This document shows positions 9,017 to 60,799 of a DNA stretch of 64,000 nt, piece by piece. Numbering within the stretch: the first letter of the stretch is position 1; every line of letters starts with the position of its first letter. Source of the DNA: Streptomyces sp. NBC_01217 (lineage in GTDB: Bacteria > Actinomycetota > Actinomycetes > Streptomycetales > Streptomycetaceae); contig NZ_CP108538.1 of the NCBI RefSeq assembly GCF_035994185.1, forward strand, positions 5,247,501 through 5,311,500, written 5' to 3'. The notes beneath the pieces were generated by a model. That model had not been told where the DNA came from. It ran no database searches and saw nothing but the letters and a program-made list of their open reading frames with translations. The translations under genes were made by a program, and so were the position numbers.

Positions 9017-9031
9017 CTGACGGGTAGTCAG
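9017..9031. promoter_or_regulatory. Shared catabolic operator, site 1 (before the acyl-CoA synthetase)
   Basis: A perfect CTGAC-GGGTA-GTCAG palindrome lies 17 bases upstream of the ligase GTG. A TACGCT box on the minus strand (9048 to 9043) would put the transcript start just before or within the palindrome, the place where a repressor would block initiation. Confidence 0.72.
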
Positions 9032-9060
9032 ATCGTGCGGAGAGCGTAGAGCGCCGCGCC

Positions 9061-9089
9061 TTGTCGGTCCAGGGGCGCGGGGCTAGCCT
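9061..9089 (+). promoter_or_regulatory. Promoter of the amidohydrolase operon
   Basis: TTGTCG (9061-9066) and TAGCCT (9084-9089) are separated by exactly 17 bases, a good fit to the vegetative Streptomyces promoter. Operator site 2 begins 17 bases downstream of the -10 box. Confidence 0.6.
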
Positions 9090-9106
9090 GAATGCCGGAA
9101 CTGAAT

Positions 9107-9121
9107 CTGACGAACCATCAG
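9107..9121. promoter_or_regulatory. Shared catabolic operator, site 2 (before the amidohydrolase operon)
   Basis: CTGAC-GAACC-ATCAG has one mismatch in the right arm, but the extended form TCTGA/TCAGA (9106-9122) is a perfect inverted repeat. It sits between the promoter and the ribosome site of the gene at 9152. Confidence 0.7.
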
Positions 9122-9151
9122 ATGCGTGCTGTGTGCGCCGAAGGGGACACC

Positions 9152-10345
9152 ATGACGGAACTGCCTCGGATCGTCAGCGTCGACGACCATGTGATCGAGC
9201 CGCCGCACCTCTTCTCGGCCTGGCTGCCCGCCAAGTACCGCGAGCGCGGCCCGCAGTCGCTCACCGCCGGCATCGGCGAGCTGGCGTACACGGGCGGCAG
9301 GTACGTCATCACGATGGACCCGGACGGGCCGCCCACCGACTGGTGGATCTACGAGGACCTGAAGTTCCCGTACAAGCGGAACATCGCCGCCGTCGGCTTC
9401 GACCGCGACGACATGACGCTGGAGGGGATCACCCGGGCCGAGATGCGCCGGGGCTGCTGGGATCCGGTCGAGCGCCTCAAGGACATGGACCTCAACCACG
9501 TCGAGGCGAGCCTCTGCTTCCCCACCTTCCCGCGCTTTTGCGGCCAGACCTTCGCCGAGGCCAGGGACAAGGAGGTCGCGCTCGCCTGTGTGCGCGCCTA
9601 CAACGACTGGATGGTGGAGGAGTGGTGCGGCGACAGCGGCGGCCGGCTCATCCCGCTCTGCCTCATCCCGCTCTGGGACATCGACCTGGCGGTCGCCGAG
9701 ATCGAGCGGAACGCCGCGCGCGGGGTGCGGGCGGTCACCTTCTCCGAGATCCCCACCCACCTCGGCCTGCCCTCGATCCACACCGGCTACTGGGACCCGT
9801 TCTTCGCGGCCTGCCAGGAGACCGGCACGGTCGTCAACATGCACATCGGCTCGTCCTCGCAGATGCCCGCCGCGTCCCCGGACGCCCCGCCCGCCGTACA
9901 GGCCTCGCTCTCCTTCAACAACGCCATGGCCTCGATGATGGACTTCCTCTTCAGCGGCGTCCTGGTGAGGTTCCCCCGGCTGAAGCTCGCCTACAGCGAG
10001 GGCCAGATGGGCTGGATCCCGTACGCCCTGGAGCGCGCCGACGACGTCTGGGAGGAGCACCGGGCATGGGGCGGGGTGCGCGATCTGATCCCCGAGCCGC
10101 CGTCCTCGTACTACTACCGGCAGATGTTCTGCTGCTTCTTCCGCGACAAGCACGGGGTCGCATCGCTCGACGTCGTCGGGCGGGACAACGCCACCTTCGA
10201 GACCGACTACCCGCACGTCGACTCGACCTTCCCGCACACGAAGGAAGTCGCCCTCGACCACGTCAAGGGGCTGGACGAGGAGACCGTCTACAAACTGATG
10301 CGCGGAAACGCGATCCGGATGCTCGGCCTGGACCTCGACAGGTAG
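9152..10345 (+). CDS. Amidohydrolase-2 family metal-dependent hydrolase/decarboxylase
   Basis: The 397-residue protein starts at ATG 9152 behind AAGGGGA. It is a TIM-barrel amidohydrolase of the ACMSD/6-methylsalicylate decarboxylase type. The metal-binding signature is at the N-terminus (IVSVDDHVIEPP), with MHIGSSS and ETDYPHVDSTFP further on. FPTFPRFCGQTF and NDWMVEEWCG are shared word for word with the paralogue at 60821-62047. It is the first gene of an operon with two acyl-CoA dehydrogenases (gaps of 7 nt each) and has the shared operator in its leader. It probably hydrolyses or decarboxylates an intermediate of an acyl-CoA pathway; the substrate is unknown. Confidence 0.85.
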   Translation: MTELPRIVSVDDHVIEPPHLFSAWLPAKYRERGPQSLTAGIGELAYTGGRYVITMDPDGPPTDWWIYEDLKFPYKRNIAAVGFDRDDMTLEGITRAEMRRGCWDPVERLKDMDLNHVEASLCFPTFPRFCGQTFAEARDKEVALACVRAYNDWMVEEWCGDSGGRLIPLCLIPLWDIDLAVAEIERNAARGVRAVTFSEIPTHLGLPSIHTGYWDPFFAACQETGTVVNMHIGSSSQMPAASPDAPPAVQASLSFNNAMASMMDFLFSGVLVRFPRLKLAYSEGQMGWIPYALERADDVWEEHRAWGGVRDLIPEPPSSYYYRQMFCCFFRDKHGVASLDVVGRDNATFETDYPHVDSTFPHTKEVALDHVKGLDEETVYKLMRGNAIRMLGLDLDR

Positions 10346-10352
10346 GCGCGCG

Positions 10353-11507
10353 ATGGACCTCGCGTACACGGAGGCCGAGGAGGAGTTCCGGGCAGGGCTG
10401 CGCGAGTGGCTGGCCGCCGTGCTGCCCTCGCTGCCCGCGAAACCGGGCCCCGACGACTGGCCGGGGCGCCGCGCGTACGACACCACCTGGCAGCGGATGC
10501 TGTACGACGCGGGCTACGCGGGCCTGCACTGGCCCGTCGACGCGGGCGGGCGGGGTGCCACCCCGAGCCAGCATCTGATCTTCCTGGAGGAGACGGAGAA
10601 GGCCGGAGCCCCGTACGTCGGCGCGAACTTCGTCGGGCTGCTGCATGCCGGGCCGACGATCGCGGCCGAGGGCAGCGCCGGGCAGCGGGCGCGCTGGCTG
10701 CCGCCGGTGCTGCGCGGCGACGAGATCTGGTGCCAGGGCTTCAGCGAGCCGGAAGCGGGCTCCGACCTCGCCTCGCTGCGGACCCGGGCGGTGCGCGACG
10801 GCGACCACTACGTGGTGAGCGGGCAGAAGATCTGGACCTCGCACGCGGAGGTCGCCGACTGGTGCGAACTGCTGGTGCGTACGGACCCGGGCGCTCCCAG
10901 GCACCGCGGAATCAGCTGGCTGGCGATGGAGATGGACGCCCCGGGCGTCACCGTCCGACCGCTGCGCACCCTCGCGGGGTCCACCGAGTTCGCCGAGATG
11001 TTCCTCGACGAGGTGCGGGTGCCGGTCTCCCACCGCGTCGGCGCGGAGAACGACGGCTGGCGCGTCACCATGGTCACCCTCTCCTTCGAGCGCGGCACGG
11101 CGTTCGTCGGCGAGGTCGTCGCCTGCCGCCGCACCCTGGCCGCCCTGGCCGCCGGGGCGCGGGCGAACGGCCGCTGGGACGACCCGGTCCTGCGCCGCAG
11201 GCTCGGCAGGCTGAACGCCGAATTCCGGGCGCTGTGGCGGCTCACCCAGTGGAACGTCAGCGAGGCGCAGCGCAGCGGCGGCGTCCCCGGCGCCGGAGGC
11301 TCGGTCTTCAAGCTGCGCTACTCGCACGCACGCCAGGAGCTGTACGAGGCGGCCGCCGAGGTGCTCGGCGCGGACAGCGGGGACCTGGACCGGGAGTGGG
11401 TCCTGGACCGGCTCTCCTCGCTCTCCTACACCATCGCCGCGGGCACCTCGCAGATCCAGCGGAACATCGTCGCCGAGCGGATCCTCGGCCTGCCGAAGGG
11501 GCGCTGA
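10353..11507 (+). CDS. Acyl-CoA dehydrogenase, FadE type, large (alpha-like) form
   Basis: The 384-residue flavoprotein dehydrogenates acyl-CoA at C2-C3. WCQGFSEPEAGSDLASL is the FAD/substrate signature, and AGTSQIQRNIVAERILGLP is the C-terminal motif of canonical FadE enzymes. The family length is normal. The next gene encodes a shorter dehydrogenase-like protein with different motifs, a pairing known from the alpha2beta2 steroid enzymes (ChsE series of Mycobacterium). I infer that the two form one heteromer. The operon is under shared operator site 2. Confidence 0.9.
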   Translation: MDLAYTEAEEEFRAGLREWLAAVLPSLPAKPGPDDWPGRRAYDTTWQRMLYDAGYAGLHWPVDAGGRGATPSQHLIFLEETEKAGAPYVGANFVGLLHAGPTIAAEGSAGQRARWLPPVLRGDEIWCQGFSEPEAGSDLASLRTRAVRDGDHYVVSGQKIWTSHAEVADWCELLVRTDPGAPRHRGISWLAMEMDAPGVTVRPLRTLAGSTEFAEMFLDEVRVPVSHRVGAENDGWRVTMVTLSFERGTAFVGEVVACRRTLAALAAGARANGRWDDPVLRRRLGRLNAEFRALWRLTQWNVSEAQRSGGVPGAGGSVFKLRYSHARQELYEAAAEVLGADSGDLDREWVLDRLSSLSYTIAAGTSQIQRNIVAERILGLPKGR

Positions 11508-11514
11508 CACGGCC

Positions 11515-12468
11515 ATGGACTTCCAGCTCTCGGACGACCAGCGGGCCCTGCGGGCAGGGGCGCGGGAACTCCTCGCCGGGCGCTTCGGCAGGGACCGGAT
11601 GCGGGCGGCCCTCGACAGCGGGACGGGTCTCGACCGGGCCCTGTGGCGGGAACTCGGCGAGGCCGGGTTCTTCGCGCTGCGGCTGCCGGAGGCGCAGGGC
11701 GGTGTCGGACTCGGGCTGCCCGAGGCCGTCCTCCTCTTCGAGGAGGCGGGGCGCTCGCTGCTGCCCGGACCGCTGATCGCCACCCACCTCGCCGCCGGTG
11801 CGGTGAAGGGGGCGGCCGAGGGCGGGGCGGTGGTCGCCGCGCTGGACGCGGGACAGCCGGTGGGGCACCTGGGCGACGCGGACGGCCTGCTGCTGCTCGG
11901 ACCGGGGCAGGCGCGGGCGGTGACCGCCGGGCAGATGCTGCGCGATGCCGTACGGGATTGCGCGGAGCCCGTACGGTCGCTCGACCCGCTCACGCCCCTG
12001 TGGCGGGTCACGGGCCCCTTCGGGCCCGGGGAGCCCCTGCCCGGCGGCGGGGCGAGGCTGCGTGACGAGGGCGCCCTGCTCGCCGCCGCCGAACAGCTCG
12101 GCAGCGCCGCCCGTACGACCGAGATGGCCGTCCAACACGCCGGTGAACGTGAACAGTTCGGTTCGCCGATCGGCTCCTTCCAGGCGGTCAAACACCTGTG
12201 CGCCGGAATGCTGGTCCGGGCCGAGCTGGCCCGCAGCGCCGTCTACGCGGCGGCCGTGACCGCGGACCGGGCCGAGATCGCGGGAGCCAAGCTGCTCGCC
12301 GACGACGCGGCGGTCCGCAATGCGCGCGACTGCCTCCAGGTGCACGGCGGTATGGGCTTCACCTGGGAGGCAGACGTTCATCTGCACCTCAAGCGGGCGT
12401 GGCTGCGGTCCGGGCAGTGGCTGACCGCGGCGGCGGCCGAGGAGGCGCTCGCGGCCGACCTGTGCTGA
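11515..12468 (+). CDS. Acyl-CoA dehydrogenase, short (beta-like) partner
   Basis: At 317 residues it is shorter than a stand-alone acyl-CoA dehydrogenase (about 380). It keeps the N-terminal helical domain (MDFQLSDDQRALRAGARELL), the central REQFGSPIGSFQAVKHL segment and LQVHGGMGFTWEADVHLHLKRA. The Gly-rich mid-domain that normally contacts substrate and flavin is reduced. This is the pattern of the beta subunits in heteromeric steroid acyl-CoA dehydrogenases. It follows its presumed partner by 7 nt and ends the operon. Confidence 0.87.
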   Translation: MDFQLSDDQRALRAGARELLAGRFGRDRMRAALDSGTGLDRALWRELGEAGFFALRLPEAQGGVGLGLPEAVLLFEEAGRSLLPGPLIATHLAAGAVKGAAEGGAVVAALDAGQPVGHLGDADGLLLLGPGQARAVTAGQMLRDAVRDCAEPVRSLDPLTPLWRVTGPFGPGEPLPGGGARLRDEGALLAAAEQLGSAARTTEMAVQHAGEREQFGSPIGSFQAVKHLCAGMLVRAELARSAVYAAAVTADRAEIAGAKLLADDAAVRNARDCLQVHGGMGFTWEADVHLHLKRAWLRSGQWLTAAAAEEALAADLC

Positions 12469-13563: not shown

Positions 13564-14490
13564 TCAGAGGACGGCGACCGGTGCGACCGGAGTGCCGGTC
13601 GCACCGGTGAACGGTTCGGGCATCGCGGAGAGCAGGAAGCCGTACCGCTTCTCTTGCGCACAGGCTGTGGACAACTTCTCCAGGTTCCAGTTCTGGCCCT
13701 GCAGCATGCCCATCTCCACCAGGTCGAGCGCATGCACCCCCAGCCACAGGTCCTCGATCTCGGGCGGGAAGATCTCGAAGGTCAGGGTGTCGTTGGCGAC
13801 CGCCGCCACATCGCGCGCGCGGAACCACTCGGGCGTCCGGATCGAGAGACCGGGCGACGGATAGGCGTACGCGTGCTTGTCGCCCGCCAGAAGGACCTGC
13901 ACCTGCCCCGTCCGTACGAGCGCGATGTCCCCGGCCCGGACCCGGACCCCCGCCAGCTCCTCGGCCGCGTCCAGGTCCTCGGGGGTGACGGCGTGATCGC
14001 CCGGCAGCCGGTCCACGCCGTGTGCGCGGGCCACATCGAGCAGCACCCCGCGCGAGACGATGTGCGGCGCCTTGTCGATCCCGCTGTACTGCGCGCCGCC
14101 GTGCGCAGTGATGGTGCCGGCCGGGCGGCCGTTGTAGATCTTCCCCGAGTGCGAGGCGTGGGTGAGGGCGTCCCAGTGGGTGGCCGTCTGCAGGCTCAGC
14201 ATGGCCGTGTCGTCGCTGGTGGCGACGGTGCCGGGGCCGAAGAGCTCCTGGTTGATCTGGACCATGGTGTGCAGCGGATTGATTCGCCCGGGGATCAGCC
14301 CGCTCTGGACGCCGTCCTGCTGGAGGGGGAGTGCGAGCGGTATGCGCAGCCCGGTGCGGACGGTGGCGGCCGCGTCCCGTACGACCGCGTCGGTGATCAG
14401 GTTGAGCGTGCCGATCTCGTCGTCGGCGCCCCAGCGTCCCCAGTTGTTGACCCGCTTGGCGATGTCGTGGAACTCGGACGGCAGTGACAT
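13564..14490 (-). CDS. Cyclase family protein (kynurenine formamidase-like metal hydrolase)
   Basis: The 308-residue product belongs to the cyclase/kynurenine formamidase-like fold. The metal-binding region appears as THWDALTHASHSGKIYNG, a variant of the family HxGTHxDxPxH motif, with the last His also replaced in context. The start ATG 14490 follows GGGAGG. Family members hydrolyse amides, lactones or esters of small acids. It is divergent from the SDR gene and shares the gap with operator site 3, so it probably belongs to the same catabolic set. Substrate unknown. Confidence 0.85.
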   Translation of the reverse strand: MSLPSEFHDIAKRVNNWGRWGADDEIGTLNLITDAVVRDAAATVRTGLRIPLALPLQQDGVQSGLIPGRINPLHTMVQINQELFGPGTVATSDDTAMLSLQTATHWDALTHASHSGKIYNGRPAGTITAHGGAQYSGIDKAPHIVSRGVLLDVARAHGVDRLPGDHAVTPEDLDAAEELAGVRVRAGDIALVRTGQVQVLLAGDKHAYAYPSPGLSIRTPEWFRARDVAAVANDTLTFEIFPPEIEDLWLGVHALDLVEMGMLQGQNWNLEKLSTACAQEKRYGFLLSAMPEPFTGATGTPVAPVAVL

Positions 14491-14536: not shown

Positions 14537-14551
14537 CTAACGGTCCGTCAG
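14537..14551. promoter_or_regulatory. Shared catabolic operator, site 3 (SDR operon/cyclase)
   Basis: CTAAC-GGTCC-GTCAG has one arm mismatch; with flanks it reads TCTAACGGTCCGTCAGA. It directly follows a TAAAAT box (14531-14536), so it would cover the transcript start of the SDR operon, and it lies 46 bases from the cyclase start. Confidence 0.68.
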
Positions 14552-14573: not shown

Positions 14574-15488
14574 ATGGGGAACTTCTTGGCAGGCAAGGTG
14601 GTGGCCGTGACGGGTGCCGGGCGCGGCATCGGCAGGGCGGTCGCGCTCGCCGCGGCGGCGGAGGGCGCGAGAGTCGTCGTCAACGACTACGGCGTCTCCA
14701 TCGAGGGCGGCGAGCCGAGCAGTGAGATAGCCGAGGCCGTCGTCAAGGAGATCGGGGCGGCGGGCGGCGAGGCGGTGGCCGTCGCCGACGACATATCCAC
14801 GATGGCGGGCGGACAGCGGATCGTGGACACGGCGCTCGCGCGGTACGGGCGGATCGACGGAGTCGTGTGCGTGGCCGGGATCCTGCGCGAGCGGATGCTG
14901 TTCAACATGTCCGAGCAGGAGTGGGATCCGGTGGTCGCCACCCACCTCAAGGGCACGTTCACGGTGTTCCGGGCCGCGTCGGCGGTGATGCGGAAGCAGG
15001 AGGGCGGCGGCACGCTGATCGGCTTCACCAGCGGCAACCACCAGGGCAGCGTCGCCCAGGCCAACTACAGCGCCGCGAAGGGCGGAATCATCTCCCTGGT
15101 ACGGAGCGCGGCGCTCGGCCTGCACAAGTACGGCGTCACGGCGAACGCCGTCGCCCCGGTCGCCCGCACCCGGATGTCCGCCAAGGTGCCCATGGAACTC
15201 AAGGAGATCGGCGAGCCGGAGGACGTGGCGTCGCTCGTCGTCTACCTGCTCAGCGAACGGGCCCGCAAGGAAAGGATCACCGGCCAGGTGTACACGATCG
15301 CGGGCCCGAAGATCGCGGTCTGGGCCCAGCCGAGGGAGTTGCGGGCGGGGTACGCGGAGGGGGCCTGGACGCCGGAGCGGATCGCGGACTTCCTGCCGGG
15401 GACGGTGGGCACGGACCCGATGCCGATGCTGGCGCGGCTGGAGGAGATGGCGGCGGCGGCCGCGGCGAGGGCGCGGCCCAACGCGTGA
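14574..15488 (+). CDS. Short-chain dehydrogenase/reductase (FabG/HSD type)
   Basis: The 304-residue NAD(P)-dependent oxidoreductase has the cofactor motif VTGAGRGIG at about residues 12-20. NDYG is next, and the catalytic YSAAK lies near 166-170, with the SDR Ser just before it (FTSGN). It resembles the 3-hydroxyacyl-CoA or hydroxysteroid dehydrogenases that act in beta-oxidation of branched side chains (HSD17B4-like). A long C-terminal extension of about 55 residues follows the fold. It is the first gene of an operon with an acyl-CoA dehydrogenase and an alcohol dehydrogenase, with operator site 3 in its promoter. Confidence 0.88.
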   Translation: MGNFLAGKVVAVTGAGRGIGRAVALAAAAEGARVVVNDYGVSIEGGEPSSEIAEAVVKEIGAAGGEAVAVADDISTMAGGQRIVDTALARYGRIDGVVCVAGILRERMLFNMSEQEWDPVVATHLKGTFTVFRAASAVMRKQEGGGTLIGFTSGNHQGSVAQANYSAAKGGIISLVRSAALGLHKYGVTANAVAPVARTRMSAKVPMELKEIGEPEDVASLVVYLLSERARKERITGQVYTIAGPKIAVWAQPRELRAGYAEGAWTPERIADFLPGTVGTDPMPMLARLEEMAAAAAARARPNA

Positions 15489-15495
15489 CGTCCCA

Positions 15496-15550
15496 CCGGG
15501 GCTCCGCCCCGCACCCCGCTCCTCGAACGCCGGAGGGGCTGGAATTTCCA
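15496..15550. repeat. Dispersed GGGGCTCCGCCCC intergenic element, copy 2
   Basis: Begins CCGGGGCTCCGCCCC and continues to CGCCGGAGGGGCTGGA. It aligns with copy 1 at 1323-1380. Here it separates two genes of one operon, so if it forms a hairpin it may reduce read-through or set mRNA stability. Confidence 0.6.
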
Positions 15551-15570
15551 CCCGACCCCAAGGAGGGGAC

Positions 15571-16725
15571 GTGGACTTCGCGTTCGACGCAGCGGACGAC
15601 GCCTTCCGCCAGGAGGCCCGGTCCTGGCTGGAGGCCCGCCTCACGCAGCCCTGCGCCACCGAGGGCGGCCGCGCGTGGGAGCGCGAACTCGGCCGTGGTG
15701 GCTGGATCGGTCTCGGCTGGCAGAACCACGGCGCCGGCCACGGCAACCGGCACGCGAGCCTCACCCAACAGGTCGTCTGGGCCGAGGAGTACGCCCGCGC
15801 CGAAGCCCCCGCCCGCGTCGGCCACATCGGCGAGAACCTCCTCGCCCCGACCCTGATCGCCTACGGCACACCGGCGCAGCAGCAGCGCTTCCTGCCCCCC
15901 GTCGCACGCGGCGAAGAGCTGTGGTGCCAGGGATACAGCGAGCCGGGCGCCGGATCGGACCTCGCCGCGGTGCGGACGGCCGCCGTACCCGACAGGGACA
16001 GCGGCGGTCACCGCGTCACCGGCCAGAAGATCTGGACATCGCTCGCGAGGGACGCCGACTGGTGCTTCGTGCTCGCGCGCACGGAGCCCGGCTCCAGCCG
16101 CCACCACGGCCTGTCGTTCCTGCTGGTGGCGATGGACCAGCCGGGCAGGATCGAGGTGCGCCCGATCCGGCAGATGTCGGGGACCAGCGAGTTCAACGAG
16201 GTCTTCTTCGACGGGGCGCACGCGGCGCAGTGCGTCGGCGGCGAGGGCAACGGCTGGGCGGTCGCCATGGGCCTGCTCGCCCTGGAGCGCGGCGTCTCCA
16301 CGCTCGTCCAGCAGATCGGGTTCGCCGCCGAACTCGACCGGGTGGTCCGGGCGGCCGTCGACGGCGGAGCCGTCACCGACCCGGTGCTGCGCGCACGCCT
16401 CGTACGGCAGTGGGCGGAGCTGCAGACCATGCGCTGGAACGCCCTGCGCACCCTGGGCTCCACGGGCGATCCGGGCGCACCCAGCGTGGCGAAGCTGCTC
16501 TGGGGCGGCTGGCACAAGCGCCTCGGCGAGCTGGCGGTGGAGATCAGGGGCGCGGCGGGCGCCGTCGGCCCGGACGAGTGGTCGGCGCGGACACCGTACG
16601 GACTCGACGAGGCACAGCGCCTGTTCCTGTTCAGCCGGTCCGACACCATCTACGGCGGCTCGGACGAGATCCAGCGGAACATCATCGCCGAGCGGGTGCT
16701 CGGCCTACCGAGGGAGCCGAGATGA
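15571..16725 (+). CDS. Acyl-CoA dehydrogenase, FadE type, alpha-like form
   Basis: A 384-residue enzyme with LWCQGYSEPGAGSDLAAV and the C-terminal motif YGGSDEIQRNIIAERVLGLP. These are the same signatures as the gene at 10353-11507, to which it is clearly related. Start GTG 15571 follows AAGGAGG. No short partner follows in this operon; the beta-like enzyme at 43513-44781 is a candidate partner in trans. Its stop overlaps the ATG of the alcohol dehydrogenase (ATGA), so the two are translationally coupled. Confidence 0.9.
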   Translation: MDFAFDAADDAFRQEARSWLEARLTQPCATEGGRAWERELGRGGWIGLGWQNHGAGHGNRHASLTQQVVWAEEYARAEAPARVGHIGENLLAPTLIAYGTPAQQQRFLPPVARGEELWCQGYSEPGAGSDLAAVRTAAVPDRDSGGHRVTGQKIWTSLARDADWCFVLARTEPGSSRHHGLSFLLVAMDQPGRIEVRPIRQMSGTSEFNEVFFDGAHAAQCVGGEGNGWAVAMGLLALERGVSTLVQQIGFAAELDRVVRAAVDGGAVTDPVLRARLVRQWAELQTMRWNALRTLGSTGDPGAPSVAKLLWGGWHKRLGELAVEIRGAAGAVGPDEWSARTPYGLDEAQRLFLFSRSDTIYGGSDEIQRNIIAERVLGLPREPR

Positions 16726-22295: not shown

Positions 22296-22310
22296 CTGAC
22301 GGAGCGTCAG
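22296..22310. promoter_or_regulatory. Shared catabolic operator, site 4 (before the flavin reductase)
   Basis: A perfect CTGAC-GGAGC-GTCAG palindrome begins 17 bases upstream of the flavin reductase ATG, immediately ahead of its ribosome-binding site, so it would lie at the very start of the transcript. Confidence 0.72.
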
Positions 22311-27899: not shown

Positions 27900-27908
27900 A
27901 TTACTGAA

Positions 27909-46136: not shown

Positions 46137-46144
46137 GCCGTCAG
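46130..46144. promoter_or_regulatory. Shared catabolic operator, degenerate site 10 (over the tetR start codon)
   Basis: On the minus strand this reads CTGAC-GGCAT-GACAG, with one arm mismatch. The start codon of the TetR gene lies inside it. This suggests a leaderless, autoregulated gene. Confidence 0.5.
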
Positions 46145-47397: not shown

Positions 47398-47559
47398 GCC
47401 GGGACACCCCGGTCCGCCCCCGGGTTCGCAACCACGGCCCCAGCCAGGAACAATCGGGGTGCGCACCGCCGGGTGGTGCCCAGTGGTGAGACGCCGTGCA
47501 AGGGGCGGGTTTTCGCGGGCTTCTGTTCCTGAGGTCCGTACGGGGAGGTGGCAGGGCAA

Positions 47560-52152: not shown

Positions 52153-52156
52153 CGGG

Positions 52157-52597
52157 TCACCGCTCCAGCTGCCAGCGGACCAGGGTCAGTTCCGGGCTCA
52201 CCGGCGCGAAGACGGCCTTCACCGGCGCCCCGATCCGCAGCCTCGCCGGATCGACCGAGTTCAACGGCGCATCCGGTCCGCTGACCACATTGCCGACCAG
52301 CCGGATGTGCGGGGCATCGGCCAGTTCGACGACGACTGCGTTGTACGGGGCCTGCGCGGCGTACGCGGGCAGCAGCGGCGGATGCGGCACGACGTACGAC
52401 CAGATGCGCCCGCGCCCGCTCATCGCCCGCCACTCGCTCTCGAACGACCGGCAGTGCGGGCAGCAGGGCCGGGGCGGGAAGCGGAGGCTGCCGCAGCCGG
52501 GGGCGGCGCAGGCCTGGACGCGGAGTTCACCCCGGGCGGCGTACTCCCAGAACGGCGCGCCGTCCTCGTCGACAACGGGCAGAAGCAGCGAGTCCAT
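52157..52597 (-). CDS. DUF35 OB-fold/zinc-ribbon partner of the thiolase-like protein
   Basis: The 146-residue product has a zinc knuckle (QACAAPGCGSLRFPPRPCCP, with CxxxxxC/CPHC) and an OB-fold (IWSYVVPHPPLLPAYAAQAP). It lies 2 bases after the thiolase-like gene, the arrangement of Ltp2-DUF35 retro-aldolase pairs. I infer that the two proteins form one complex. GTG or ATG usage: the start is ATG 52597. Confidence 0.9.
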   Translation of the reverse strand: MDSLLLPVVDEDGAPFWEYAARGELRVQACAAPGCGSLRFPPRPCCPHCRSFESEWRAMSGRGRIWSYVVPHPPLLPAYAAQAPYNAVVVELADAPHIRLVGNVVSGPDAPLNSVDPARLRIGAPVKAVFAPVSPELTLVRWQLER

Positions 52598-52599
52598 GG

Positions 52600-53748
52600 T
52601 CAGCTCCTCAGCAGTACGGCGGAGGTCGGCACGCCCTCACCTGCGGTGACCAGGCACGTCCCGGCGCCCGGGACCTGGGCGGTGGAGAGACCGCGCAGCT
52701 GCTTCACGCCCTCGGTGATGAGGTTGAAGCCATGCACATAGGCCTCGCTGAGCCCGCCGCCCCCGGTGTTGACGGGCAGCCGCCCGCCGCTCTCCAGCGC
52801 CCCGCCCTCGGTGAACGCGGCGCCCTCGCCGCGCCCGCAGAAGCCGTAGCCCTCCAGGGAAAGCGGAATGAGCGGGGTGAACGCGTCGTAGATCTGCGCG
52901 ACGTCCACGTCGTCCGGCCCGAAGTCGGCCTGTTTCCACAGCTGTCGGGCGGCCGTCCAGGCGGGTCCGGTGAGCGGGTCGTCGTTCCAGTAGTTGACCA
53001 TGCCATGGTGCTGGGCGGGCAGCCCCTGGGCGACGGAATGGATGTAGACGGGCTTCTGCCGGCAGTCGCGGGCCCGCTCGGCGGAGACGATGACGCAGGC
53101 CAACGCCCCGTCGGTCTCAAGGCAGTTGTCGAAGAGGCAGAGCGGTTCGCTGATCCATCGCGAGGTCATATACATGTCGCGGGTCAGTGGCCGCTCGTAC
53201 ATCACCGCGTCCGGGTTCTGGTTGGCGCGGTTGCGGCAGGCGAGGGCGACGTTGAAGAGATGGTCGCGGGTGGCTCCGTACTCGTGCATGTACCGCCGTG
53301 CGAGCATCCCGATCTCGTCGGCGGGCCGCAGCAGCCCGTACGGCCGGGTCCACTGGGCGGGGGTGGGCAGCTGCGCGGTGGTGTTCCGCCAGGGCCGGGG
53401 CCCCGAGCCCCGCTTCCGTGACCGCCAGGCGACCCCGACGCTCGCCTGCCCGGTCGCGACGGCGGCGGCGAGATGCGCGACCGTCGCACACGATCCGCCG
53501 CCGCCGTACCCCACCTTGCTGAAGAAGGTGACATCGCCCGCCCCGATGGCCTTGGCGATCTCGACCTCGTCGGTCTCCTCCATCGTGTACGAGGCGAAGG
53601 CATCCACTTGCGAAGCGGCGATGCCCGCGTCGTCGAGCGCCGCGACGATGGCCCGGCAGGCCAAGGCCTTCTCGGATTCGGGCAGTTGCTTCGCGAACGC
53701 CGTCTGCCCTATGCCGGCTATCGCTGTCACGTCCTTGAGCGCCGCCAC
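52600..53748 (-). CDS. Ltp-type thiolase/aldolase-like protein
   Basis: A 382-residue member of the SCP-x/Ltp branch (VTAIAGIGQTAFAKQLPESE). The nucleophile loop reads VGYGGGGSCATVAHLAAAV, with Cys displaced from the classic CSSG position. The C-terminal part has NTGGGGLSEAYVHGFNLI in place of the thiolase GHP motif. These changes are found in Ltp2-like retro-aldolases, which need a DUF35 partner, and that partner is encoded next. The promoter region carries shared operator site 11. It is divergent from the FadD3-like ligase gene. Confidence 0.87.
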   Translation of the reverse strand: MAALKDVTAIAGIGQTAFAKQLPESEKALACRAIVAALDDAGIAASQVDAFASYTMEETDEVEIAKAIGAGDVTFFSKVGYGGGGSCATVAHLAAAVATGQASVGVAWRSRKRGSGPRPWRNTTAQLPTPAQWTRPYGLLRPADEIGMLARRYMHEYGATRDHLFNVALACRNRANQNPDAVMYERPLTRDMYMTSRWISEPLCLFDNCLETDGALACVIVSAERARDCRQKPVYIHSVAQGLPAQHHGMVNYWNDDPLTGPAWTAARQLWKQADFGPDDVDVAQIYDAFTPLIPLSLEGYGFCGRGEGAAFTEGGALESGGRLPVNTGGGGLSEAYVHGFNLITEGVKQLRGLSTAQVPGAGTCLVTAGEGVPTSAVLLRS

Positions 53749-53802: not shown

Positions 53803-53817
53803 CTGACGGATAGTCAG
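53803..53817. promoter_or_regulatory. Shared catabolic operator, site 11 (thiolase operon/FadD3-like ligase)
   Basis: A perfect CTGAC-GGATA-GTCAG palindrome in the 97-bp gap between two divergent genes. A single repressor dimer here could control both directions. Confidence 0.72.
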
Positions 53818-53845: not shown

Positions 53846-55402
53846 ATGCGCGGCGACGAGGAGTGGGGCAGCATCCCGGAGCTGGTACGGGCGGCGGCGC
53901 GGCGGTACGGGGACCGGGAGGCGGTCGTCGAGGGCCGGACCCGGATCTCGTACGCCGAACTGGGCGACCGCGTCGAACGGGCCGCCGCCGCCTGCATGGC
54001 CGCGGGCGTCGAGCCGGGGGACCGGGTGGCGGTCTGGGCCCCGAACACCCTCGACTGGATCGTCTCCGCGCTGGGCGCGGTCACGGCCGGGGCGGTCCTC
54101 GTCCCCCTCAACACCCGCTTCAAGGGCACGGAGGCGGCGTACATCCTGCAACGCAGCCGGGCGAAGCTGCTCTTCGTCACCGGCACCTTCCTCGGTACGT
54201 CATACGTGGCGTCCCTGCGCAGGACGGTGGTACGACTACCGCATCTGGAGCAGGTGGTGGTGCTGGCGGACGCGGCCCCCGAGTCCTACGTCACCTGGAA
54301 GGACTTCCTGGCGGCGGGCGAGCGGATATCGCCCGCGGCGGTGCGGGAGCGGGCCGAGGCGATCACCCCGGCCGCCCCCTCCGACATCGTCTACACCTCA
54401 GGCACCACGGGCCGCCCCAAGGGCGCCGTCATCACCCACGCCCAGACCCTGCGCTGCTACGCGATCTGGAGCGAACTGGCCGGTCTGCGCGAGGGTGACC
54501 GCTATCTGATCGTGAACCCCTTCTTCCACACCTTCGGCTACAAGGCGGGCATCATCGCGTGCCTGATGCGGGGCGCGACGATGGTTCCGCAGCCGGTGTT
54601 CAACGTGGACACGGTCCTGGCGAACATCGCCGCCGAACGCATCTCGGTCCTGCCGGGCCCGCCCACCCTCCACCAGTCCCTCCTGGACCACCCGGCGCGC
54701 GGCGCCCACGACCTCTCGGCCCTGCGCCTGGTGGTGACGGGCGCGGCGGTGGTACCCCTGCAGCTGGTGGAACGCCTGCGCACGGAGCTGGGCATCGCGA
54801 CGGTCCTCACGGCCTACGGCCTCTCCGAGGCGAGCGGCATCGTCACGATGTGCCGCCGCGGCGACCGGCCCGAAGTGATCTCCTCCACCTCGGGCCGGGC
54901 GATCCCCGACACGGAGATCCGCGTCCTGGCGGCCCCCGGCACCCCCGGAGAGGTCCTGGTCCGCGGCTTCAACGTGATGCAGGGCTACTTCGAGGACCCC
55001 GACACCACGACCACCGCCATCACCGCGGACGGCTGGCTCCACACGGGAGACGTAGGCATCCTCGACGAGGCGGGCAATCTGCGCATCACGGACCGGATCA
55101 AGGACATGTTCATCGTCGGCGGCTTCAACGCCTACCCCGCGGAGATCGAACAGCTCCTGGGCCTGCACCCGGACGTGGCGGACGTGGCGGTGATCGGCGT
55201 CCCGGACCCCCGACTGGGCGAGGTGGGCAAGGCCTACGCGGTCCGCAGACCGGGCGCGACGGTGACGGCCGACGACCTGATCGCCTGGTCGAGGCGCGAG
55301 ATGGCGAACTACAAGGTCCCGAGAACGGTGGAGTTCGTGAACGAACTGCCGCGCAATGCGAGCGGCAAGGTGGTGAAGGGGGAGCTGCGGGGGCGGGAGT
55401 AG
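53846..55402 (+). CDS. FadD3-like acyl-CoA ligase (AMP-forming)
   Basis: A 518-residue AMP-forming ligase that starts at ATG 53846 behind GGGAGGG. IVYTSGTTGRPKGAVITH is the P-loop and TAYGLSEASGIVTMCRRGD the A5 motif. GWLHTGDVGILDEAGNLRIT and LPRNASGKVVKGEL supply the hinge and catalytic Lys. Overall resemblance is to FadD3, which activates the propionate side chain of the steroid indane intermediate HIP in Mycobacterium. Similarity does not prove that substrate. It is divergent from the thiolase-DUF35-hydratase operon and shares operator site 11. Confidence 0.9.
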   Translation: MRGDEEWGSIPELVRAAARRYGDREAVVEGRTRISYAELGDRVERAAAACMAAGVEPGDRVAVWAPNTLDWIVSALGAVTAGAVLVPLNTRFKGTEAAYILQRSRAKLLFVTGTFLGTSYVASLRRTVVRLPHLEQVVVLADAAPESYVTWKDFLAAGERISPAAVRERAEAITPAAPSDIVYTSGTTGRPKGAVITHAQTLRCYAIWSELAGLREGDRYLIVNPFFHTFGYKAGIIACLMRGATMVPQPVFNVDTVLANIAAERISVLPGPPTLHQSLLDHPARGAHDLSALRLVVTGAAVVPLQLVERLRTELGIATVLTAYGLSEASGIVTMCRRGDRPEVISSTSGRAIPDTEIRVLAAPGTPGEVLVRGFNVMQGYFEDPDTTTTAITADGWLHTGDVGILDEAGNLRITDRIKDMFIVGGFNAYPAEIEQLLGLHPDVADVAVIGVPDPRLGEVGKAYAVRRPGATVTADDLIAWSRREMANYKVPRTVEFVNELPRNASGKVVKGELRGRE

Positions 55403-55895: not shown

Positions 55896-56096
55896 TGCTC
55901 GTACGGGACAGCGCCTGGCGTCCCGGTCCAGCGCTCGCTCGGTGCGGGACGAGGAGGGCGGCCAGGGCCTACTGCTGATCGGTGCCTGTGCTGTGGACTG
56001 GGGTGTGTGCCGGCGTGGGGCGGGCCCCGGTAAGGCGGTCTGGTTCCAGCTGGGAGGCGCGGGCGGATGTTGACCGCGGCGGGTATGGTGATTGGT

Positions 56097-56372
56097 ATGG
56101 CAACTAAGAAGTACACGGTCACGCTGCCGGAGGAGCTCGCGGAGGAGATCCGCAGCGAGGTGGGCTCGGGGGCGTTCAGCGCGTACGTCACCCGCGCCAT
56201 AGAGCGTCAGCGTGAGCACGACCGGCTGGGGGAGCTGGTGGCGTGGATGCAGGAGAAGGGCGGACCGCCCACCGAGGAGGAGCAGGCGGCTGCGGCGTCG
56301 GAGATGCGCGACATCGAGCGGTGGTTCGAGGAGCGGGAGTCCGGTGCGCAGGGCGGGGCGACTACTGCGTGA
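56097..56372 (+). CDS. CopG/VapB-like antitoxin
   Basis: The 91-residue protein starts at ATG 56097 (an in-frame ATG 56085 is possible). The N-terminus MATKKYTVTLPEELAEEIRS is a ribbon-helix-helix DNA-binding domain. The acidic C-terminal half (EEEQAAAASEMRDIERWFEE) should wrap the toxin. Its stop codon overlaps the toxin start (TGATG). Confidence 0.87.
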   Translation: MATKKYTVTLPEELAEEIRSEVGSGAFSAYVTRAIERQREHDRLGELVAWMQEKGGPPTEEEQAAAASEMRDIERWFEERESGAQGGATTA

Positions 56373-56767
56373 TGACCGATCTCTGTTTCGTGCTGGACAG
56401 CGAGGCTCTGTCGAGGGCGGTGCGTCGTGAGCGGGCCATGACGGCCATGATCACGAAGGCCCATCAGGCAGGCGCCCGGGCCGTGACCAGCTCTATGACC
56501 CTCATCGAGGCGTATCACAGCAAGATCCGGCGTTCGGAGTGGAACTGGGTGACGTCCCGGATCGTCGTCGAACCGGTGACCAAGGAGGTCGCGGACGAGG
56601 CGATCGCGCTGCTCGCGGATACCGGCCTGCATGGTCACAAATATGCCATCGACGCGGCACTTGCGGTGATCGCGGGGCGGCAGCGGGGGCGGGTCGCGGT
56701 GTTCACCTCGGACGCGGATGACATGCGGAAGTTGTGCGGGGCAGGGGTGCAGATCAGGGGGCTGTAG
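56372..56767 (+). CDS. PIN-domain toxin (VapC-like ribonuclease)
   Basis: The 131-residue product shows the acidic PIN residues: Asp in CFVLDSEALSR, Glu in MTLIEAYHSK, Asp in YAIDAALAVIA and Asp-Ala-Asp-Asp in VFTSDADDMRKL. The start is ATG 56372, overlapping the antitoxin stop. A GTG three bases earlier is an alternative. Downstream lies a strong hairpin terminator (56779-56809). Confidence 0.88.
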   Translation: MTDLCFVLDSEALSRAVRRERAMTAMITKAHQAGARAVTSSMTLIEAYHSKIRRSEWNWVTSRIVVEPVTKEVADEAIALLADTGLHGHKYAIDAALAVIAGRQRGRVAVFTSDADDMRKLCGAGVQIRGL

Positions 56768-57194: not shown

Positions 57195-57371
57195 CTAGTT
57201 GGCCGGCTCGCTCGTGGCGTGGGCGTCGGTCGGCTTGATGACCGGCTCGGACGTCGCGTGGGCGTCCAACGGCTTGATCGGCTCGCTGGTGGCGTGCGCG
57301 TCCAGGGTGGTGATCTCCTCGCCGGTGGCGTGTGCATCTGCCGGCTTGAGGTTGTCCTTGTCGGTGGCCAT
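57195..57371 (-). CDS. afsS: AfsS, small activator of secondary metabolism
   Basis: The 58-residue cytoplasmic protein is built of four repeats around the motif (T/L/A)DAHAT: ADAHATGEEITT, LDAHATSEPIKP, LDAHATSEPVIKP and TDAHATSEPAN. This is the repeat structure of S. coelicolor AfsS, a 63-residue sigma-like protein that stimulates actinorhodin and undecylprodigiosin production. It lies just downstream of afsR in the same orientation, as in S. coelicolor. ATG 57371 has CAGGAGT nine bases upstream. Its promoter contains a candidate AfsR box (57543-57560). Confidence 0.93.
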   Translation of the reverse strand: MATDKDNLKPADAHATGEEITTLDAHATSEPIKPLDAHATSEPVIKPTDAHATSEPAN

Positions 57372-57488
57372 GAAGGTCAACTCCTGAAGTGTGGACGTAG
57401 GGACTGGGCGGGCCCGCCCGGCTGTTCCCCCGTGGACTGCCGGACGGGCCTTCCGGGGCCGTTCACCTTAGTGGTGAGGCCGCACGCC

Positions 57489-57560
57489 GATCCGTCTGCC
57501 CCCCGACGCGACGGATCGATGAGTAGAGAGTGGCGTGCGGTGATAAACGATTGATGAACG
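57489..57560 (-). promoter_or_regulatory. afsS promoter with AfsR box
   Basis: On the minus strand CGTTCAT-CAAT-CGTTTAT (57560 to 57543) forms heptamer direct repeats with an 11-bp period, as expected for a SARP-type regulator. The second repeat overlaps a -35-like TTTATC (57547-57542), 16 bases before TACTCA (57525-57520). This agrees with known AfsR binding at the afsS -35 region. Downstream inverted repeats (GATCCGTC at 57489 and GACGGATC at 57510) could form a leader hairpin. Confidence 0.62.
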
Positions 57561-57572
57561 CCGGACGTGAGG

Positions 57573-60539
57573 TCAGGCCACTGCTGCCGGTTTCAGCAGT
57601 TCACGCACCACTTCGGCCTCGGGGGAACGTAGTTCGTCGAAGATTGTCAGTGCCTCACCCCAGCACACCTGCGCGCGGTCCGTCTGGCCGATGGCCGTCA
57701 GGGCCCGGCCGAGCACAGTCAGGACGTTGGCGCGGCGCCAGTCCCCGCCGATGCCGCGGAGCATGGCCAGTGCCTGCTCCGCGTGGGCCGCTGCCTGAGC
57801 CCCCTCCTTCTCGGCGAGGTGAAGCTCGGCCACGCGGAAGAGGGTCATGCCATGCCACAGCTGCTGACGGCTCTCCCGGAAGATGTGCAGAGCTTCCAGC
57901 AGGACGTTCCGGGCCCAGGACGTCTGCCCGCTGCCGCTGAGCGCGAGTCCGAGTGCGTATTTGCCATTGGCGAGACGGAGCGCCAGACCGGTGGTGTCGG
58001 CCTCATAGATGGCGACGCCCTGCTGGGCGAGTTGCACCGCGCTGGTGGTCCGACCGGTTGCGAGATGCACGCGCGAGAGATTGCACAGCGCGGCAGCCTC
58101 TCCGGGCTTGTTGCCGTCGGCGCGGAACGCCGCCATGGCCTGTGTCAGGTGGGATTCCGCGTCCTCGTGCCGGTTCTCGTAGAGCGCGATGATGCCGCGT
58201 TGGTTGGGTGCCTGCCCTTGTGAAACCGCGTCCTGTGCCAGGCGGCCCAGGCTCAGTGCCCGCATGGCCTCTGCTTCGGCCTCGGCGAAACGGCCCGAGA
58301 CGCTGTGCACATGGGACAGCATGGTGCGTGCCCGCGCCTCGGCCCGTGCTTCGCCTGCGGTCTCGGCTGCATCGCTGACGGCCTTGGCCGCAGTGGCGAA
58401 CTGGTGTGAGTTCGCTCCTGATTCACCCAGGTCGACCACGGCCATGAGGAGGTCGGAGGCGCGCCCCGGCATGCCGAGGGCGGCCGACTGGCGTGCGCAC
58501 GCGAGCAATCCACTGGACTCCGTGAACAGCCAGTCGAGCGCGGTCTCGCGGACGTCGAAGGTGAGACCGGGGTACTCGGTACGCGAGAAATGGTCGAGTA
58601 CGCGCTCCCCCGGCCGCTCCAGCGCATAGACCCCCGCCGCCGTCGCCAGATAGAAGTCCAGCAGCCGCGACAGCGCCGACTCGCGCTCCTGTGGCGGCTG
58701 CTCGTCCCGTTCCGCGCAGGAACGCGCGTAGAGGCGTACCAGGTCGTGGTAGCGGTATCGGCCCGGGGCGGCCGATTCCAGGAGGCTGGTGTCGACCAGG
58801 GCCTCCAGGAGGTCCTCCGCCGCATGCACCTCCAGGTTCAGGAGTGCGGCCGCCGCGGCCAGGGAGATGTCGGGGCCGTCGGCCAGGCCCAGGAGGCGGA
58901 AGGCGCGGGCCTGGGCGGGTTCCAGCTGGCCGTAGCCGAGTTCGAAGGTGGCCTTCACCGCGAGGTCGCCCGCCTGGAGTTCGTCCAGGCGGCGGCGTTC
59001 GTCGGCGAGTTTGGCGGCCAGGACGGAGACCGTCCAGGTGCGGCGTGCGGCCAGGCGGGAGGCGGCGATGCGGATGGCCAGGGGGAGGAAGCCGCAGGCG
59101 GCGACCACGTCGAGGGCGGCCTCGCGCTCGGAGTTGATGTGCTCCTCGCCCACGATGCGGGTGAAGAGCTGCAGCGCCTCCTCGGGGGACATCACGTCCA
59201 GATCGACCAGGTGCGCCCCCGCCAGGTCGACCATGCGGACGCGGCTGGTGATCAGGGCCGCGCAGCCCGCGGTGCCGGGCAGGAGGGGGCGGATCTGGGC
59301 GGCGTCATGGGCGTTGTCGAGGAGGACCAGGATGCGGCGCCCGTCGAGCGTGGAGCGGTAGAGCGCGGCGCGTTCGTCCAGGGAGTCGGGGATCGCGGAG
59401 TCCGCCGTGCCCAGGGCGCGCAGGAACGCGCCGAGGACCGTCTCCGGTTCGGCGGCGCGTGCGCCCGCGCCCTGGAGGTCCACGTACAGCTGGCCGTCCG
59501 GGAAGTGCTGACGGGCCTGGTGGGCGACGTGTACGGCGAGGGTCGTCTTGCCGACGCCGCCGATCCCGGCCAGCGCCGAGACGGCCATGACCGAACCCTC
59601 GGCGGTCGCCAGCCGGTCGCCCAGTTCGCGGACGAAGGAGGCGCGGCCCGTGAAGTCGGGAACGGTGGCCGGCAGCTGGGCGGGGCGCACCGGCGCGGGG
59701 GCCGGGGCCGGTTCGGCGGCCGGGCGGGCCAGTTCCTCGTCGGCCTGCAGGATGCGCTGCTGGAGCTGGGAGAGTTCGGGGCGCGGGTCGACGCCCAGTT
59801 CGTCGGCGAGCAGCCGGCGGGTGTCGGCGTACACCGCGAGCGCCTCGGCCTGGCGGCCGCTGCGGTAGAGCGCGATCATCAGGAGTTCGCGCAGGCGCTC
59901 CCGCAGCGGGTGCGCGGCGGTGAGCGCGGTCAGTTCGGAGATCGCCTCGGCGTGGGCGCCGACCTCCAGGTCCAGGTCCAGGCGGGTCTCGGTGAGCTGG
60001 AGCCGCCATTCCTCCAGACGGGTGCGCTGGTACTCGGCGTACGGGCCGGGCACGGAGGCCAGGGCTTCGCCGTCCCACAGGCCGAGCGCCTTGTTGTAGA
60101 GGGCGCGGGCCTGACCGCGGTCACCACCGGACCGTGCCTTCTCCGCCTCCGCCGCCAGTTCCTGGGCCACCGTCAGGTCGAGGGCGTCGTGCCTGGTCCG
60201 GATCGCATATCCACCGGCGTCGCTGACCAGCGTCCGCGGGTCGAGGACCTTGCGAAGCCGCGAGGCGTACGTGCGTACGGCGGCGAGTGCCTGCGAGGGC
60301 GGGTCCTCGCCCCAGATGGCGTCGATGAGTTCGGCGGCGGTGGCCGTGCGGCCGTCGCGCAGGAGCAGTGCGGTCAGCAGGGCGCGCTGCTGCGGTGAAC
60401 CGGACGGCAGCGCTTCGCCGCCGCGCCATGCCCGTACCGGGCCGAGCACGGAAAAGCGCAGGCCGACGCCGTCGGCCGACCGCTGCCCAGGAGCGCGCTG
60501 CTCCGGAACATGCATGCGTGGCCCGTTGTCACGGTCCAT
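57573..60539 (-). CDS. afsR: AfsR, SARP-type pleiotropic transcriptional regulator with ATPase and TPR domains
   Basis: The 988-residue product starts at ATG 60539 behind AGGGGG. An OmpR-like winged helix (about 27-105, LRFSVLGPVRAWRGGE to YASRLRKVLD) and a bacterial transcriptional activation domain (about 110-265) form the SARP unit. A Pro/Ala linker leads to an NB-ARC ATPase with Walker A GIGGVGKTT (325-333), then TPR repeats to the C-terminus. AfsK phosphorylates AfsR, which then activates afsS. The length (S. coelicolor AfsR is 993 residues) and neighbouring afsS confirm the assignment. Confidence 0.95.
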   Translation of the reverse strand: MDRDNGPRMHVPEQRAPGQRSADGVGLRFSVLGPVRAWRGGEALPSGSPQQRALLTALLLRDGRTATAAELIDAIWGEDPPSQALAAVRTYASRLRKVLDPRTLVSDAGGYAIRTRHDALDLTVAQELAAEAEKARSGGDRGQARALYNKALGLWDGEALASVPGPYAEYQRTRLEEWRLQLTETRLDLDLEVGAHAEAISELTALTAAHPLRERLRELLMIALYRSGRQAEALAVYADTRRLLADELGVDPRPELSQLQQRILQADEELARPAAEPAPAPAPVRPAQLPATVPDFTGRASFVRELGDRLATAEGSVMAVSALAGIGGVGKTTLAVHVAHQARQHFPDGQLYVDLQGAGARAAEPETVLGAFLRALGTADSAIPDSLDERAALYRSTLDGRRILVLLDNAHDAAQIRPLLPGTAGCAALITSRVRMVDLAGAHLVDLDVMSPEEALQLFTRIVGEEHINSEREAALDVVAACGFLPLAIRIAASRLAARRTWTVSVLAAKLADERRRLDELQAGDLAVKATFELGYGQLEPAQARAFRLLGLADGPDISLAAAAALLNLEVHAAEDLLEALVDTSLLESAAPGRYRYHDLVRLYARSCAERDEQPPQERESALSRLLDFYLATAAGVYALERPGERVLDHFSRTEYPGLTFDVRETALDWLFTESSGLLACARQSAALGMPGRASDLLMAVVDLGESGANSHQFATAAKAVSDAAETAGEARAEARARTMLSHVHSVSGRFAEAEAEAMRALSLGRLAQDAVSQGQAPNQRGIIALYENRHEDAESHLTQAMAAFRADGNKPGEAAALCNLSRVHLATGRTTSAVQLAQQGVAIYEADTTGLALRLANGKYALGLALSGSGQTSWARNVLLEALHIFRESRQQLWHGMTLFRVAELHLAEKEGAQAAAHAEQALAMLRGIGGDWRRANVLTVLGRALTAIGQTDRAQVCWGEALTIFDELRSPEAEVVRELLKPAAVA

Positions 60540-60784
60540 TGCTGCCCCCTGCCCTGCTCGCCCCGCCGGTCCTGCCGATCGTGCTGGTGCTGTCCGTTCC
60601 GGACTGCCCGCCCTGTGCCGGTGTGCCGGTCCGGGACGGATACATCCGGATTGCTCGCTACCGTTGGTATCGCGGTCAACAGTCTGCCTTGTTATGGGCG
60701 GACACGTCAGCAGTGGGTGACTCTCTGCACAAGCCCTCGACAACGATTGTGGAACGGGGGCGGGTACGGATGACCGACGGATAG

Positions 60785-60799
60785 CTGACGGTTCGTCAG
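60785..60799. promoter_or_regulatory. Shared catabolic operator, site 12 (before the second amidohydrolase)
   Basis: A perfect CTGAC-GGTTC-GTCAG palindrome. A TACCGT box (60808-60813) lies downstream, so the operator would overlap the -35 position, and the message would start at or near ATG 60821. Confidence 0.72.

Follow-up and report, generated by a model that had tools for sequence, protein, structure and literature searches.

What purpose is served by a palindrome that recurs in front of catabolic genes, and which protein reads it, are the questions raised by a 64,000-nucleotide stretch of the Streptomyces sp. NBC_01217 genome (contig NZ_CP108538.1, positions 5,247,501 to 5,311,500; here called the window). 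The palindrome, CTGACGnnnCGTCAG, has the form CTGAC-N5-GTCAG and lies before genes for acyl-coenzyme A (acyl-CoA) and related catabolism. Very probably it is the operator of a TetR-family protein encoded within the window at 45489 to 46136 on the minus strand, which is predicted to repress its own gene together with the catabolic set.

Copies of the palindrome in the window

A first-pass annotation, made from the letters alone, had listed seven copies with perfect arms (9017, 22296, 27885, 27909, 37385, 53803, and 60785) and five with one arm mismatch (9107, 14537, 43306, 43459, and 46130), and all twelve were found. A fourth-order Markov model of the window predicts 0.04 perfect copies per 64 kb, close to the earlier estimate of about 0.05, and 1.9 copies with one mismatch, compared to seven of each observed. 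When copies with zero to two mismatches were pooled there was no excess (30 observed versus 40.7 expected); thus, the signal is confined to the near-perfect class, where it was confirmed as real. The G+C content of the window is 70.6%, rather than about 72% as previously given.

The sites share the consensus wTCTGACGnnnCGTCAGAw, a 15-bp core with A/T flanks. The 65 sites used for a position weight matrix (PWM) include 11 from the window itself, making the scoring of window copies partly circular; 11 of the 12 copies scored between 19 and 30, while the top score over 30 shuffles was 15.0. The first spacer base, thought to be G throughout, is G in 11 of the 12 and A at 46130. Two further one-mismatch copies, missing from the list of twelve, were rejected as members as both are at chance level: 31473 has a PWM score of 14.5 against the shuffle maximum of 15.0, and 57562 falls outside the top 22 PWM matches.

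Placement of sites across the genome

Across the 9,034,013-base genome, 47 perfect copies were identified compared to three for a reversed-pattern control, and 115 compared to 37 when one mismatch was allowed. Placement was assessed in 467 kb of DNA (the window with 80 kb of surrounding sequence, plus segments flanking sites), with genes called by a codon-usage script whose coding fraction of 81% suggests that some genes were missed; one-mismatch sites of this genome were placed in the window only. Promoter space, taken as the 250 bp upstream of each start plus the first 20 bp of the gene, made up 10.7% of this DNA. An even spread without promoter preference had been named beforehand as the result that would speak against a regulon; instead, 26 of the 47 perfect sites are in promoters, where approximately five are expected (binomial p 7e-14), with 14 inside genes and seven elsewhere. 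Outside the window, 19 of 40 sites are in promoters (binomial p 5e-9). Promoter sites also carry more A/T bases next to the arms than in-gene sites (2.8 versus 1.5 of four).

Candidate target genes

The independent gene calls bear out the earlier statement that all twelve copies lie at promoters or gene starts, although 9107 is upstream of its amidohydrolase gene only if translation starts at the ATG at 9152, the gene caller having picked 9092. The sites (listed without a strand) and the genes they face are as follows.

9017 to 9031: perfect site, 24 bp before the acyl-CoA ligase gene
7411 to 9000, minus strand: AMP-forming acyl-CoA ligase (PF00501)
9107 to 9121: one-mismatch site, 38 bp before the amidohydrolase ATG at 9152
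9152 to 12468, plus strand: amidohydrolase (PF04909) and two acyl-CoA dehydrogenases, probably one operon (gene calls, domain scan)
14537 to 14551: one-mismatch site between the divergent genes for a cyclase-family protein and a short-chain dehydrogenase/reductase (SDR), kept in 5/5 relatives
13564 to 14490, minus strand: cyclase-family hydrolase (PF04199)
14574 to 17771, plus strand: SDR, acyl-CoA dehydrogenase, and zinc alcohol dehydrogenase (domain scan)
22296 to 22310: perfect site, 25 bp before the flavin reductase gene, kept in 5/6 relatives
21658 to 22278, minus strand: flavin reductase, nearest to HsaB but below the HsaB model cut-off (profile scan)
27885 to 27923: two perfect sites (27885 to 27899 and 27909 to 27923), centers 24 bp apart; two sites in 6/6 relatives, spacing not always 24
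24722 to 27827, minus strand: ADP-forming acyl-CoA synthetase (25599 to 27827) and enoyl-CoA hydratase (24722 to 25567) (domain scan)
37385 to 37399: perfect site between the FMO-like gene and the DoxX/ChsH2-like operon (motif scan, relatives)
36064 to 37182, minus strand: FAD-dependent, FMO-like monooxygenase (domain scan); site kept in 4/6 relatives
37421 to 38295, plus strand: DoxX-like protein (just under the Pfam cut-off) and ChsH2-type zinc-ribbon/OB protein (domain scan)
43306 to 43320: one-mismatch site, 12 bp before the thiolase-like gene (motif scan, conservation)
43459 to 43473: one-mismatch site, 47 bp before the acyl-CoA dehydrogenase gene (motif scan, conservation)
42132 to 43301, minus strand: thiolase-like protein of the lipid-transfer/acetyltransferase type (profile scan)
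43513 to 45308, plus strand: acyl-CoA dehydrogenase (nearest IpdE2, below cut-off) and F420H2-dependent reductase-like protein (profile scan)
46130 to 46144: one-mismatch site CTGTCATGCCGTCAG, candidate autoregulatory site overlapping the TetR start codon
45489 to 46136, minus strand: TetR-family regulator of 215 aa (P0001), proposed binder (PF19352, co-occurrence, EthR-like fold)
53803 to 53817: perfect site between the thiolase-like operon and the FadD3-family ligase gene, perfect in 30/30 loci
51379 to 53748, minus strand: thiolase-like protein, ChsH2-like protein, and enoyl-CoA hydratase (domain scan)
53846 to 55402, plus strand: FadD3-family acyl-CoA ligase (NF005801, 832 bits, cut-off 657)
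60785 to 60799: perfect site between an afsR-like gene and a divergent amidohydrolase gene, 20 bp before the latter (motif scan)
60812 to 62047, plus strand: amidohydrolase (PF04909)

With operons deduced from gene order, the putative regulon within the window comprises 14 transcription units and 23 genes, slightly more than the at least nine units and about 20 genes first proposed for one regulon, a proposal that is otherwise supported. The single copy that had been set apart as not facing a catabolic gene, 46130, lies at the start of the TetR gene itself. The gene at 22462 was rejected as a target, as its orthologue is absent from the examined stretches of all seven relatives.

Counting the window, 69 proteins of this genome are site adjacent, from which 20 site-proximal proteins encoded outside the window were chosen and scanned. 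Thirteen are catabolic or redox enzymes: a hydratase, a ligase, an isochorismatase-like protein, a ChsH2-like protein, a ferredoxin reductase, an FAD oxidoreductase, a MaoC protein, three luciferase-like proteins, an aldehyde dehydrogenase, an amidohydrolase, and an acyl-CoA dehydrogenase. The other seven are a glycosyltransferase, a DBI_PRT phosphoribosyltransferase, an ABC protein, a GDSL lipase, a TerF-like protein, an NlpC/P60 protein, and one without a family. A further scan turned up, in addition, a PNPOx-type flavoprotein, a subunit of a 2-oxoacid:ferredoxin oxidoreductase, and two proteins without a family (one being the same 150-aa protein). The oxidoreductase gene is 324 bp from a site in this genome, while its homologue in the family designated f14 (68% identity) is directly site adjacent; this subunit (L110:1677-3632; in f14, L257:4184-6040) is an unexpected target for a CoA-catabolic regulon. 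The genome has 30 matches to the acyl-CoA dehydrogenase N-domain, five of which were placed under sites (four in the window and one at 4710384), with the comparison for the remaining 25 limited to perfect sites.

Conservation of sites in relatives

Loci were taken from the best 80 of 584 relatives, all at least 92% identical to the query and 78 of the 80 labelled Streptomyces. The intergenic region between the thiolase-like and acyl-CoA dehydrogenase genes has a site with at most one mismatch in 66 of 66 readable loci (of the 80), and two sites in 61. The site in the FadD3 region is perfect in 30/30 loci, as is that of the DoxX promoter in 13/14. When 60 distinct thiolase/acyl-CoA dehydrogenase regions, none longer than 320 bp, were compared with the window, identity was 0.91 inside the sites versus 0.33 outside; within the site at 43459, the arms have 0.93 to 1.00 identity, and two spacer bases have 0.07 and 0.10. 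Similarly, 28 distinct versions of the FadD3 region, at most 260 bp long, gave 0.97 identity inside the site versus 0.62 outside. The arms are therefore kept among relatives while the spacer and surroundings drift.

Sites with at most one mismatch were identified before 81 of 84 orthologues of 14 tested target genes in seven relatives, divergent genes sharing sites in this count, so the loss of sites upstream of orthologous operons, the other result named as adverse, was not seen. Retention was complete for the ligase (5/5), each of the two amidohydrolases (5/5; two extra matches per gene at 57% identity were set aside as paralogues), the cyclase (5/5), the SDR (5/5), the synthetase (6/6, two sites each), DoxX (6/6), the thiolase and acyl-CoA dehydrogenase (7/7 each), TetR (7/7), and the second thiolase and FadD3 (7/7 each), with the flavin reductase (5/6) and the FMO (4/6) making up the set. 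A site within 300 bp upstream of afsR was present in only 3/7 relatives; afsR is thus no more than a possible target and is not counted here.

The TetR-family protein

The protein encoded at 45489 to 46136 has the features of a TetR regulator, with an N-terminal helix-turn-helix (HTH) domain (PF00440, E 5e-6) and a C-terminal helical domain (PF19352, E 6e-74). It is the only PF19352 match in the genome, and its gene sits amid the palindrome sites. Its all-helical predicted model matches TetR structures and has an EthR-type fold. Identity to EthR is 19%, the best sequence match (E 6e-6) being confined to a 65-residue segment of the HTH region. In the recognition helix, the stretch TSxATFYQYF is invariant at all positions except x in 21 of 21 alignment rows. 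KstR and KstR2 were absent from its 11 PDB sequence matches; KstR was also absent among the 50 structure matches listed, which excludes nothing. A site of the 46130 type is kept in 30/30 family loci read (own genome included), where it covers the start codon in all 30 in the form CTGACGgcATGACAG or CTGACGacATGACAG, and in 7/7 relatives.

A nearby Ser/Thr kinase, BTAD/NB-ARC regulator, and small protein are presumably afsK, afsR, and afsS (only the regulator was domain scanned), and positions 46507 to 49950 and 57195 to 60449 look like the kbpA/afsK and afsS/afsR areas. The window thus appears syntenic with the neighborhood of SCO4421 and afsK (SCO4423). By this synteny, the TetR gene is most likely the SCO4421 orthologue. 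In the available passages of one study, SCO4421 is a developmentally regulated TetR gene near afsK with lower expression in a whiA mutant on arrays; it is active in spore chains (mCherry fusion), its deletion has no phenotype and its function is described as unclear, and these passages give no operator or target for it (PMC3878966).

Co-occurrence of regulator and sites

If the TetR protein binds the palindrome, both should be found in the same genomes. A class-wide sample of 246 genomes was searched, 222 of them outside the own family, with up to 12 TetR candidates scored per genome. Outside the own family, a TetR relative (best E <1e-30) was present in 19/222 genomes. The orthologue was found in 13 of 14 genomes with at least five perfect sites versus 6 of 208 with fewer (Fisher p 1e-15, or 2.5e-10 leaving out five genomes of family f13; both values are generous, as genomes of one lineage are not independent). 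Only one of the 203 genomes without such a relative has at least five sites (G272, with five sites and 850 contigs). The cleanest case is the order containing G162, whose nine genomes are also part of the class sample: where the orthologue is present there are 14, 7, 14, 13, and 14 sites, and where it is absent there are 0, 0, 0, and 1. Of the four genomes without it, G218 contains a distant TetR match scoring 69 bits, compared to approximately 340 for orthologues. Within the own family, the TetR match has an E value of 1e-88 or better in 149/150 genomes, the remaining genome (G074, 76% complete) giving 2.5e-38, and a site is present in 149/150, with counts from 0 to 127.

The TetR gene also has sites at its own promoter in other families. 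In f14 a site lies 31 to 44 bp before the match start in 5/5 loci; that of G245 has two mismatches over 12 fixed positions, and the other f14, f16, and f12 sites have at most one. In f16 it lies 29 to 66 bp before the called start, itself upstream of the match, in 6/6 loci, and in the single f12 locus it is 17 bp inside the called start. The TetR promoters examined in f4 and f19 had no site. The f16 proteins (L069, L070, L072, L074, L075, and L077) seem to be N-terminally extended by approximately 60 to 80 residues, with the site preceding the extended start.

With limits of 300 bp before to 70 bp after the start, perfect sites were in promoters in 41/42 cases in f14 (G162, G180, and G236; one is in a gene), 3/3 in f12 (G160), and 12/13 in f16 (G229, G238, and G256). 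The consensus from f14 sites alone is wTCTGACGnSnCGTCAGAw. Scanning 64 of 66 f14 site neighbors (two open reading frames shorter than 75 aa were left out) identified 13 acyl-CoA dehydrogenases, six luciferase-like proteins, five ChsH2-type proteins, four SDRs, and three amidohydrolases, as raw counts without a genome-wide base rate. The f14 homologues of the window amidohydrolases, acyl-CoA dehydrogenases, and SDR are themselves site adjacent. In other actinomycete families, too, genes for related enzymes are preceded by this site.

Proposed mechanism and alternatives

From the sites, their promoter placement and conservation, the targets common to other families, and the co-occurrence with TetR, all read from sequence, we infer binding, repression rather than activation, a ligand, and a substrate. 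A TetR dimer would occupy each site, overlapping or crowding the promoter -10 region and blocking transcription, including that of its own gene. Binding of an intermediate of the pathway in the C-terminal pocket (an acyl-CoA thioester is the likeliest candidate) would release the protein and so switch on the whole set of acyl-CoA ligases, acyl-CoA dehydrogenases, hydratases, thiolase/ChsH2-type proteins, amidohydrolases, dehydrogenases, and flavin enzymes.

A number of observations weigh against this assignment. In the own genome, 14 of the 47 perfect copies are intragenic and seven are placed elsewhere. The 46130 site has a PWM score of 12.1, inside the shuffle noise, and is a weak site whose membership rests on position and conservation and not on the score; the start codon accounts for part of its conservation, and less weight was placed on it because this stretch is under constraint from the -10 element as well. 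Genomes G167 and G175 have TetR relatives at 43% identity that share the recognition-helix core, yet neither has a perfect site in the genome or any site near the TetR gene (that of G175 has an in-frame TGA), and G196 has a relative at 50% identity with one perfect site in its genome. The f13 TetR promoters have one one-mismatch site (G217) and otherwise two-mismatch sites, and within the own family TetR presence and site count do not track. Finally, the palindrome occurs 127 times in G081 and 218 times in G217 (f13), counts inflated by gene-end and in-gene palindromes. Among 16 sampled copies from these two genomes (L209 to L224), seven hold the stop codon of a neighboring gene and five are inside genes. 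In those seven, TGA stops of neighboring, sometimes convergent, genes lie inside the palindrome, possibly as a shared gene-end hairpin. The 127 and 218 copies are not this regulon, and the number of perfect motifs per genome was rejected as a measure of regulon size, with 12 of the 16 at gene ends or intragenic. For this reason, statistics are also given without f13, and weight was placed on f14, f16, and f12.

These sampled copies are what favors regarding the palindromes as RNA hairpins, terminators, or general repeats rather than as the sites of a shared binding protein. As an account of the whole it is extremely unlikely, and for the window sites it is already contradicted by the positions upstream of starts (26/47 in the own genome, 41/42 in f14, and 12/13 in f16), the A/T flanks, and the conserved arms with drifting spacers. 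It is quite unlikely that the regulon is real but bound by another regulator of matching distribution, with TetR merely one of its targets. The TetR gene does bear a site like any target, and it is 371 bp from its divergent glyoxalase-like neighbor, so gene context gives no hint of its target; of 372 TetR genes in three streptomycetes, 250 are transcribed divergently from a neighbor, and those tested with a gap under 200 bp repress it, according to the available passages of PMC3511530. Sites at the TetR gene's own promoter in three families, with the pattern of presence and absence in one order, nevertheless make TetR the most likely binder, and no other regulator family was among the 25 commonest Pfam families beside f14 sites. 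A palindrome of 15 to 17 bp also suits a TetR dimer.

Action of the protein as an activator at these promoters is very unlikely. Sites are outside 18 to 50 bp before the start codon in 28/66 gene-site pairs in f14 and 40/78 in relatives (divergent partners counted), as might suit an activator, but inside this range in 38/66 and 38/78, respectively, which makes repression likely. In 13 of these 38 cases from relatives, TAnnnT begins 11 bp before the site center (counted without a shuffled control), suggesting that the operator overlaps a likely -10 element, and in Streptomyces the site covers the TetR start codon itself. Repression by TetR of itself and the catabolic set is the preferred reading. 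A wider proposal is rather unlikely to hold in full: that an EthR-like TetR repressor near afsK/afsR controls the CoA-dependent breakdown of a bulky (ring- or terpenoid-like) acid in several actinomycete families, is tied to spore development through WhiA, and may be linked to secondary metabolism by the afsR-adjacent site.

Other features of the window

Two larger proteins and a short one at 28067 to 30338 resemble, by eye, an ATP-grasp-type modified-peptide (graspetide) cluster, and small gene pairs at 40723 to 41398 and 56067 to 56767 resemble, by eye, antitoxin/PIN-toxin modules. A nucleotide search of a plasmid collection with positions 27000 to 30000 of the window gave no match.

Comparison with known systems

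The palindrome was not found in the literature searched (full strings, plus broader searches judged on titles and the opening lines of abstracts, without subscription papers or regulon databases), and neither were SCO4415, SCO4419, SCO4420, SCO4427, SCO4428, or TetR_C_38. A typical straight-chain fad operon was not noticed under the sites, no dedicated search for one having been made. The proposed regulon belongs to a known kind, in which a TetR protein governs CoA-dependent catabolism as well as its own gene; what appears to be new is this member and its distinct operator. The assignment would provide a regulator strongly matched in 149/150 sampled genomes of its family with a likely function, an operator, and a list of targets. 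Scattered and poorly annotated acyl-CoA, amidohydrolase, luciferase-like, and ChsH2-type genes would be grouped into one catabolic program, which should help in finding the substrate. It also serves as a warning that palindrome counts alone mislead in some genomes.

The closest parallels are KstR and KstR2 of mycobacteria, which control cholesterol and steroid-ring catabolism and in which, likewise, one autoregulating TetR protein acts through numerous palindromic operators at genes for ligases, acyl-CoA dehydrogenases, hydratases, thiolases, and ChsH2-type proteins. Some window enzymes resemble those of steroid pathways, with FadD3 above its cut-off and IpdE2 and HsaB below theirs. As the first-pass annotation had claimed, the operators differ: using the consensus sequences quoted there, the sites lack the AACnnGTT core of KstR (TnnAACnnGTTnnA) and the CAAGnnCTTG of KstR2 (AnCAAGnnCTTGnT). 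The TetR-type fatty-acyl-CoA sensors FadR, DesT, and FasR also have different operators. EthR of Mycobacterium tuberculosis, at 19% identity, is known for a single long operator, that at ethA, in contrast to the dozens of short sites here.

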